Below are positions 38,319 to 62,050 of a stretch of 64,000 nt of DNA, one piece after another (position 1 is the first letter of the stretch; each line of letters starts with the position of its first letter). The stretch is from Agathobacter rectalis ATCC 33656 (GTDB taxonomy: Bacteria > Bacillota > Clostridia > Lachnospirales > Lachnospiraceae), in NCBI RefSeq assembly GCF_000020605.1, contig NC_012781.1:930001-994000 (forward strand), given 5' to 3'. The notes beneath the pieces are model-generated. The model made no database searches and had not been told where the DNA came from. It worked only from the letters and a program-made list of their open reading frames with translations. The translations under genes and the position numbers were made by a program.

Positions 38319-38581
38319 TCCGCACACTGCAGGCACAGCGGCACACACGTACTCTCTCGTAAGCTACGCTACGCCATTAAGAATCTGTAGGAATTATGCC
38401 TTTTGGTTTTCGATGCTTGACGAAACCGGCTTTTATGCGCCGTCCATGGCGCATAACGCCTTGCCCCGGCGTCCATGCCGGTGCATTTCTGGTTGTGAAG
38501 CATAATTCAACAGATTCTAAATAGCTTCGCTATGCGCTTACGAGAGAGTACGTGTGTGCCGCCGTGCCTGCAGTGTGCGGA
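38319..38581. repeat. 263-bp near-perfect palindromic element with internal hairpins
   Basis: The outer arms 38319-38364 and 38536-38581 are complementary at 45 of 46 positions. Inside, AGAATCTGT (38380-38388) pairs with ACAGATTCT (38510-38518), and GAATTATGC (38391-38399) with GCATAATTC (38500-38508). The centre has three small hairpins: GGTTTTCG/CGAAACC (38405-38427), TTATGCGCC/GGCGCATAA (38433-38456) and CCGGC/GCCGG (38466-38481). The last two share the loop GTCCAT. No ORF fits. It is either a MITE-like mobile element or a structured RNA, and fills most of the 446-bp gap before the alarmone synthetase gene. Confidence 0.85.
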
Positions 38582-38635
38582 TCTGTGCACATATAAAATA
38601 ACAAGAATAAAAAATATATAAATAATAGGTATAAT

Positions 38636-38666
38636 TTGCCAATTACGCGAATAAATATGCTATAAT
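38636..38666 (+). promoter_or_regulatory. extended -10 promoter of the alarmone synthetase gene
   Basis: TGCTATAAT (38658-38666) is an extended -10; TTGCCA (38636-38641) is a possible -35 with a long 19-bp spacer. Confidence 0.55.
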
Positions 38667-38720: not shown

Positions 38721-39395
38721 ATGGAACAAGAGTTTGCGGAGGGCATTGATAGCTGGGAGACTATGATGTTTCTATACAATTCTGCACTGAAAGAGGTCAA
38801 TACTAAGCTCGAGATACTAAATGACGAGTTTGTTCACATACATAATTATAATCCGATAGAGTACATAAAGTCGCGTATCAAGACTCCTGAAAGCATAGTT
38901 AAGAAGCTCAAAAAGGGTGGCTACGAGAGCACCATAGAGAATATGGTCACATATGTAAAGGACATAGCGGGCATCAGAATCGTGTGCTCGTTCACATCTG
39001 ATATATACCGGCTTGCTGAGATGATTGGCAGGCAGAATGATTTGACCGTCATATCGGTAAAGGACTATATGAAGCATCCGAAGGCGAGCGGCTACAAGAG
39101 CTACCACATGATTGTTTCGGTGCCTATTTTTCTTTCAAACAAGGTGGTTGACACAAAGGTTGAGATACAGATTCGTACAATAGCTATGGATTTCTGGGCA
39201 AGCCTTGAGCACAAGATATATTACAAGTTCGAGGGCAATGCACCTGAGTATATCAGCCGCGATCTGCGTGAGTGTGCAGGTATCGTAGGACAGCTTGATG
39301 CAAAGATGCTTTCGCTCAATGAGGCAATCCTTGAGGCCAAGGAGAAGCAGGAGCATGAGAGGGAGGAGAAAATACGAGAAGATGAACATCATTAA
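38721..39395 (+). CDS. small alarmone synthetase (RelQ/YjbM-type GTP pyrophosphokinase)
   Basis: 224 residues, a single RelA/SpoT synthetase domain without hydrolase or TGS domains. Blocks include SRIKTPESIVKKLKK, VKDIAGIRIVCSFTSDIYRLAEMI, KDYMKHPKASGYKSYHMIVSVP and VEIQIRTIAMDFWASLEHKIYYK. It makes (p)ppGpp from GTP or GDP with ATP, or related alarmones, in response to cell-wall or other stress. GGGAGG precedes the ATG. It ends in a charged coiled tail and overlaps the ABC-F gene by 14 bp. Confidence 0.93.
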   Translation: MEQEFAEGIDSWETMMFLYNSALKEVNTKLEILNDEFVHIHNYNPIEYIKSRIKTPESIVKKLKKGGYESTIENMVTYVKDIAGIRIVCSFTSDIYRLAEMIGRQNDLTVISVKDYMKHPKASGYKSYHMIVSVPIFLSNKVVDTKVEIQIRTIAMDFWASLEHKIYYKFEGNAPEYISRDLRECAGIVGQLDAKMLSLNEAILEAKEKQEHEREEKIREDEHH

Positions 39396-61846: not shown

Positions 61847-62050
61847 TCAACGCAAACGTAAGTATGTACTGCGGGCTATCGCAGGAATTTACGACTGTGG
61901 AGTGTACAAGAACTTGTGAGTAGCGTATTGTTTACAATCGCCAAAGCATACACAATGAAGCAGTAAGAAGTATCCGCAAGGACTTTAATTTCTCGATGTG
62001 TTTGAGAATATTTAAACACATTTTGAGTGGCAGAACAATATGAAAAGTAC
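61847..62050 (+). ncRNA. probable TnpB omega-RNA (reRNA) with guide from the flanking gene
   Basis: From the tnpB stop to the right end lie about 180 structured, non-coding bases, including hairpins CTGCG/CGCAG (61869-61884) and ATTGT/ACAAT near 61927-61938. In this position known elements transcribe the omega-RNA scaffold, with the guide starting at the first flanking base, here about 62031. The 5' end and the exact guide length are not determined. Confidence 0.6.
62001..62022 (-). repeat. right subterminal inverted repeat of the IS607 element
   Basis: Inverted copy of 60050-60071 (21 of 22). It also forms a local hairpin with ATGTGTTT at 61996-62003 against AAACACAT at 62014-62021. Confidence 0.8.

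Follow-up and report, generated by a model that had tools for sequence, protein, structure and literature searches.

A near-perfect palindrome in Agathobacter rectalis is a member of the dispersed TwoAYGGAY RNA family, the loops of which look like candidate CsrA-docking sites

The palindrome studied here, which lies in a window of 64,000 nucleotides of the Agathobacter rectalis ATCC 33656 genome, is a member of the known RNA family RF01731 (TwoAYGGAY RNA), extended by long outer arms that fall outside the Rfam model. TwoAYGGAY RNA was reportedly first described in 2010, and no tested function was found for it in the largely open-access literature that was searched. In A. rectalis the family acts as a dispersed repeat, the loops of which match the binding motif of the translational regulator CsrA and look like candidate docking sites for this protein. 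From comparison of the sequences we lean, with some reserve, towards the reading that TwoAYGGAY is a dispersed CsrA-binding, sponge-like RNA element.

The two 46 nt arms of the inverted repeat are 98% complementary and are separated by a spacer of 171 nt (Table 1). The minus strand of the element folds at −177.3 kcal/mol, with none of 200 shuffled sequences folding equally well, and the plus strand, with its flanks included, reaches −170.4 kcal/mol (z −15.8). The near-perfect palindrome of the original prediction is therefore real, with a fold far below those of the shuffles on both strands. The minus strand matches RF01731 over the full length of the model and has in common with the family the P1 stem and both terminal AYGGAY loops, which read AUGGAC twice. 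It differs from the family as modelled in that the near-perfect stem runs 46 nt further on each side, the anatomy being a core of approximately 168 nt, made up of stem P1 with two hairpins, and an outer stem extending past the Rfam model. The centre holds two hairpins that share one six-base loop (GTCCAT on the plus strand, ATGGAC on the minus strand) and a weaker third hairpin. The identical loops noticed previously are the two AYGGAY loops of the family; they had been placed on stems of opposite polarity, which is wrong, as both read in the same direction on one strand. The palindrome is flanked by an SpoU-type RNA methyltransferase gene with a small ORF (no Pfam match) and by a RelA_SpoT-domain gene. 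Elsewhere in the window, a RAGATH-18 RNA (RF03064; 75.7 bits) is found at positions 61894–61966 of the plus strand.

Table 1. Positions in the window of the hairpin element, its parts and its surroundings.
Feature	Position	Strand	Basis
Whole hairpin element (outer arms and TwoAYGGAY core)	38319..38581	− (RNA sense)	Inverted repeat; fold z −20.5
RF01731 TwoAYGGAY core, full model 1–168	38366..38532	−	151.8 bits, gathering score 43
5′ outer arm (RNA sense), beyond the Rfam model	38536..38581	−	Inverted repeat, 45/46 paired
3′ outer arm (RNA sense), beyond the Rfam model	38319..38364	−	Inverted repeat
Hairpin 1	38462..38485	−	Loop AUGGAC 38471–38476, C-G closed, CsrA-type motif; fold and Rfam alignment
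Hairpin 2	38428..38460	−	Loop AUGGAC 38442–38447, C-G closed, CsrA-type motif; fold and Rfam alignment
Candidate sigma-70-like TTGGCA-18-TATATT	38613..38642	−	Approximately 30 bases upstream of the RNA
RelA_SpoT-domain neighbour gene, outside the element	38721..39395	+	Pfam PF04607, E 2e-32

A mobile element had been suggested and a search for further copies proposed, and the palindrome does belong to a repeat family. The A. rectalis genome (one contig of 3,449,685 bases) contains 49 copies that score above the RF01731 cut-off with the covariance model, a BLAST search with the element returns 43 match rows in the same genome (the two strands of the element itself included) and the sister genome G312, which is 86% complete, contains 33 copies. 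In a sample of 299 Lachnospiraceae genomes, comprising approximately one per genus and searched with strict filters and at most nine scored candidates per genome, 45 genomes have an RNA match (E 0.001), 43 of them above the cut-off; the 26 RNA-bearing genomes that were fully scored hold from 1 to 25 matches apiece. At the level of the class, matches occur in 36 of 391 genomes, in 27 of these above the cut-off, and 30 of the 36 lie outside Lachnospiraceae, spread over 11 other families. Among named genomes a scan with a pattern found 34 loci, every one with a title naming Lachnospiraceae or Roseburia, and no match was obtained among phages or in viral_contigs, the latter searched with one pattern. 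An origin from a phage or plasmid was rejected, since there is no phage match and the sole plasmid record looks like chromosome: this 252 kb record (NZ_CP143948.1; L283–L287), which bears the label of an A. rectalis plasmid, encodes ribosomal proteins and contains rpoB/rpoC and further housekeeping genes. Nothing was found in the literature on TwoAYGGAY as a repeat or MITE, and no earlier description was found of its many copies, of self-complementary arms private to each copy or of clusters linked to parS, most subscription papers lying outside the search.

Divergence of the outer arms between copies is close to saturation, and complementarity within each copy has been retained. Among the A. 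rectalis copies identity is 52% for the left arms (47% in a shuffled control) and 74% for the cores, and the two arms of one copy agree at 81% over a fixed window. Pairing of the arms extends to 15 positions or more in 122 of 135 copies (seven broken A. rectalis copies and L067 being left out of the arm and loop counts), as it does in 15 of 20 copies from other families, and only one of 42 controls that joined left and right arms from different A. rectalis copies reached this figure. The core stems vary in the same compensated manner: in 43 sequences 90.5% of cells are paired, against 58.8% in shuffles and 36–42% when the strands are slid, and 413 cells have changed on both sides, against 116 in shuffles. 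A published covariation analysis from 2020 also lengthened a TwoAYGGAY helix (PMC7657543). The covariance check proposed earlier has thus revealed strong compensatory change in the stems. Two outcomes had been named that would speak against the original prediction, namely that the palindrome is part of a larger annotated element, or that it is unique and varies without compensatory changes; it does belong to an annotated Rfam family, but it is not unique and compensatory changes are present, and the interpretation as a whole is partly supported.

Whether this pairing is maintained in RNA or in DNA can be addressed through the mismatches, since a DNA-level process should yield equal numbers of G·U and A·C and an excess of G·U consequently points to constraint at the RNA level. 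On the TwoAYGGAY strand the outer arms show 127 G·U against 67 A·C mismatches (52 against 20 by copy) in the stricter alignment, but 164 against 157, without bias, in the looser first alignment. In the core stem the two are approximately equal (7:5 in A. rectalis copies and 8:8 in others), and in hairpin 1 the ratio is 6:0 in A. rectalis copies and 1:1 in others. Comparison of A. rectalis with G312 over 819 arm pairs (21 comparisons, excluding L190, where one flank matched and the core differs at 53 of 166 positions) gave ten compensatory double changes, five other double changes and 59 single changes, of which 23 produce G·U, 15 A·C and 21 other mismatches. The mismatches within copies are moderate evidence for a constraint on the outer arms at the level of RNA, in the sense of the TwoAYGGAY strand. 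The original prediction had read the near absence of decay in the arms as recent movement or selection as RNA; constraint as RNA is apparent, but the arms look fresh because their pairing is maintained and not because they are young.

In 131 copies (42 from A. rectalis, 30 from G312 and 59 others) 205 of the 262 loops have the form C(ANGGAN)G, in which the second and sixth positions are free, in a motif-guided count for which the search presupposes the motif in six-base loops; of the remainder, 43 have five bases, with GGA in 28 and no GGA in 15, and 14 belong to neither class. In 20 orthologous pairs compared between species, positions A1, G3, G4 and A5 have changed at one of 152 sites and N2 and N6 at six of 76 (p 0.006); the flank divergence of 10.6% in this comparison is probably inflated by misalignment and was set aside. 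The published SELEX consensus of CsrA is RUACARGGAUGU, with the GGA preferentially in a hairpin loop (PMC4347634). TwoAYGGAY RNAs were proposed in 2015, from motif matches, to be CsrA-binding sRNAs of Clostridia (PMC4333381), and a preprint describes unequal stability of the two hairpins (PMC11661157). TwoAYGGAY and Escherichia coli CsrB also carry the same Rfam clan number (CL00106).

Within the 299-genome sample every genome with the RNA is that of a flagellated member of Lachnospiraceae, and nearly all of these genomes encode CsrA. CsrA is found in 44 and flagellin in all 45 of the RNA-bearing genomes, compared with 154 and 156, respectively, in the whole sample (Fisher p 2e-13 for CsrA and 9e-15 for flagellin, with kinship ignored and the overlaps read from lists); these counts cover the Lachnospiraceae sample. 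The sole RNA-bearing genome without a CsrA match (G168) is 93% complete and in approximately 110 contigs. Since the genomes with CsrA are almost the same ones that have flagellin, the link to CsrA is inseparable from motility. A. rectalis itself has two CsrA genes (PF02599), one beside fliW, with a product of 75 amino acids, and a second that is divergent. The divergent gene adjoins an ORF (L060, 2010–3068) that by eye resembles the group II intron reverse transcriptase described below. According to PMC4894983, many CsrA-bearing bacteria are without known antagonist sRNAs, and FliW binds CsrA in Bacillus subtilis.

In the reading that we favour, the long stem, in a sequence private to each copy, would present the conserved two-hairpin head as RNA, and the ANGGAN loops closed by C-G would bind CsrA, either with one dimer per RNA or by bridging RNAs. 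Copies that are transcribed would jointly titrate CsrA, which is encoded here beside FliW, its likely protein antagonist, and this titration may influence flagellar and other CsrA targets. Transcription, CsrA binding, titration and a physiological effect are the steps that we infer. CsrB/CsrC and RsmX/Y/Z have in common with TwoAYGGAY the GGA in hairpin loops, the Rfam clan and CsrA as the expected partner. They differ in that they carry many sites per RNA and are encoded by one or few genes, whereas TwoAYGGAY has two putative sites and occurs as dozens of scattered copies with no consistent promoter or terminator found. Several observations count against a CsrA sponge: the absence of a group promoter signal, the rarity of T-runs, the near-random orientation, the minority of loops that lack GGA or fit neither class, and two copies with GGA in neither loop, namely the sole copy of G096 and one copy of the A. 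rectalis parS cluster. The genome without a CsrA match, the inseparability from motility and the lack of G·U bias in the looser arm alignment belong to the same account.

The main competing explanation is a non-autonomous mobile element of MITE or REP type with no cellular role, in which a transposase or reverse transcriptase recognises the hairpin and the conserved loops are its site. The 49 dispersed intergenic copies, near-random in orientation and without a promoter, would suit such an element. TwoAYGGAY shares with REP/BIME sequences and their RAYT enzymes and with MITEs the form of palindromes scattered between genes in tens of copies, and it is likewise a target of another mobile element, a group II intron; it differs in its length (approximately 260–300 nt), its conserved structured head and its private arms. 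Many A. rectalis copies also share short conserved-looking ends outside the palindrome, with a 5′ sequence of approximately CCACARCGTAAGG and a 3′ sequence of approximately CCGTACTA; these ends could be a promoter element or the ends of a mobile element. Mobilisation by RAYT was rejected because the A. rectalis genome has no Y1/RAYT transposase gene (no match to PF01797, with positive controls).

Recent transposition was examined at orthologous G312 sites and in the A. rectalis DFI.5.28 record. The site of the window copy is occupied in G312 as well (at the 15 other loci of the genus that were inspected, out of 18, the element was not seen), and for 24 of the 30 G312 copies examined a flank matches sequence next to an A. 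rectalis copy, although two of these matches are weak (L190, with one flank only, and L208, with a 92 nt match); one of the A. rectalis partners carries an intron. Absent alleles are readable at six of the eight sites aligned. At five of these sites a remnant of one arm or of both is left, the sixth is clean but ambiguous, and the target duplications that had been sought were not seen. The DFI.5.28 record is 95.6–99.5% identical around four A. rectalis copies; among five copies with flanks there, four are shared (476777, 471418, 424204 and 512070), and at the fifth, 495876, the intergenic sequence differs, which is the one within-species difference in favour of mobility. Since sister copies stand mostly at shared sites and the readable absences are mostly deletions, the recent movement suggested by the original prediction is not supported, and we conclude that the family is old and, in this comparison, mostly vertically inherited, with losses. 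Together with the lack of phage or viral_contigs matches for the queries used and with the confinement to flagellated genomes, which mobility leaves unexplained, these results make a purely mobile element unlikely.

Some copies have been altered by other events. At L221 (G312:C15:42050–42850) both outer arms are kept and the entire core is gone, leaving a plain palindrome, and the A. rectalis copy 2455686 is complete. At L231 (C1:2039000–2043200) other DNA takes the place of the 5′ part in two copies, which have an intact copy between them, and the stretch contains Transposase_31 (YhgA-like) ORFs. A group II intron of approximately 1.9 kb (RVT_1 and maturase domain; L230, 749–2143) interrupts the A. 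rectalis copies 2053357, 2184758, 2406493 and 1468841 at the same site of the core, on the opposite strand and just past the stem-loop of hairpin 1; the G312 partner of 2053357 is intact. Group IIC introns target hairpins, and the intron site in TwoAYGGAY resembles this.

The surroundings of the copies bear on a second alternative, a 3′-end element in which a strong hairpin stabilises, processes (through RNase III) or terminates transcripts that enter from either side. The great stability of the fold and the closeness of many copies to a gene end (within approximately 50–200 bases) fit this explanation, but T-runs of six or more follow only five of 101 copies within the stretch examined, and six of 42 A. 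rectalis copies lie between genes that point away on both sides. No T-run terminator site was found after the window hairpin, and with T-runs also rare in the family an intrinsic terminator is not supported. The ANGGAN loops and the link to flagellated genomes would also be left unexplained, and we regard a 3′-end role as improbable. The candidate promoter of the window copy has the best promoter-like score of the 101 copies, in a region with two promoter-like sites against 1.6 in shuffles, which is not above chance. Over the 101 copies there is no excess of sigma-70 promoter score at the 5′ over the 3′ end (9.63 versus 9.58, p 0.58), and the 5′ score is marginal against shuffles (9.63 versus 9.33, p 0.05); a sigma-70 promoter as a feature of the family is not supported by these scores. 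The upstream gene is co-directional in 26 of 42 A. rectalis copies, and around the copies in 20 low-copy genomes no protein neighbour recurs beyond a few generic families. Cis-regulation of a fixed gene was rejected for this reason; the Rfam type 'Cis-reg' is thus not supported by the neighbours, and the pattern suits action in trans.

A further feature of the family is its clustering with parS-like sites. Three tandem A. rectalis copies alternate with four perfect parS-like sites (L039, 8226–9440; C1:3438225–3439440); parA lies on one side of them and a LuxR-family response regulator with a histidine kinase on the other. In G116, G022 and one Lachnospiraceae MAG (loci L102, L269 and L176), parS-like sites with 0–2 mismatches likewise have two or three copies among them, near parA. 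On rough assumed numbers 0.36 such cases are expected by chance (p of approximately 5e-4). Among 20 low-copy genomes only G116 has parS-like sites in the contexts examined, which cover G180, G170 and G190 in part. A DNA-level structure tied to chromosome segregation, be it a cruciform or a protein-bound palindrome, would account for these clusters in four genomes, but nearly all copies lie elsewhere, 19 of the 20 low-copy genomes are without a parS-like site in those contexts, and the G·U bias and loop pattern indicate RNA, so that it is very improbable.

The same cluster may be viewed from the side of CsrA titration. GacA/UvrY (BarA–UvrY) controls CsrB-type sRNAs, and the position of the A. 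rectalis parS cluster beside a LuxR-type regulator recalls this control. One may speculate that flagellated Clostridia, in place of one or a few sRNA genes, have dozens of CsrA decoys with two sites each scattered over the chromosome, the stems of which diverge as their arms co-evolve, that the amount of free CsrA is set by transcription all over the genome and that the cluster near the LuxR-type system is a regulated master locus in A. rectalis; this distributed form of the sponge is a tentative and rather doubtful extension.

The family offers many natural inverted repeats with concerted evolution of their arms, and could serve to separate compensatory selection from correction by template switching. 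Its loops are constrained at the positions that CsrA should recognise, its occurrence in the sample is confined to flagellated Lachnospiraceae and a human gut bacterium carries dozens of copies; this evidence makes the suggestion of 2015 directly testable. Were the sponge reading true, RNA would be a further titrant of CsrA in Clostridia that have FliW, in an architecture different from that of CsrB or RsmZ.
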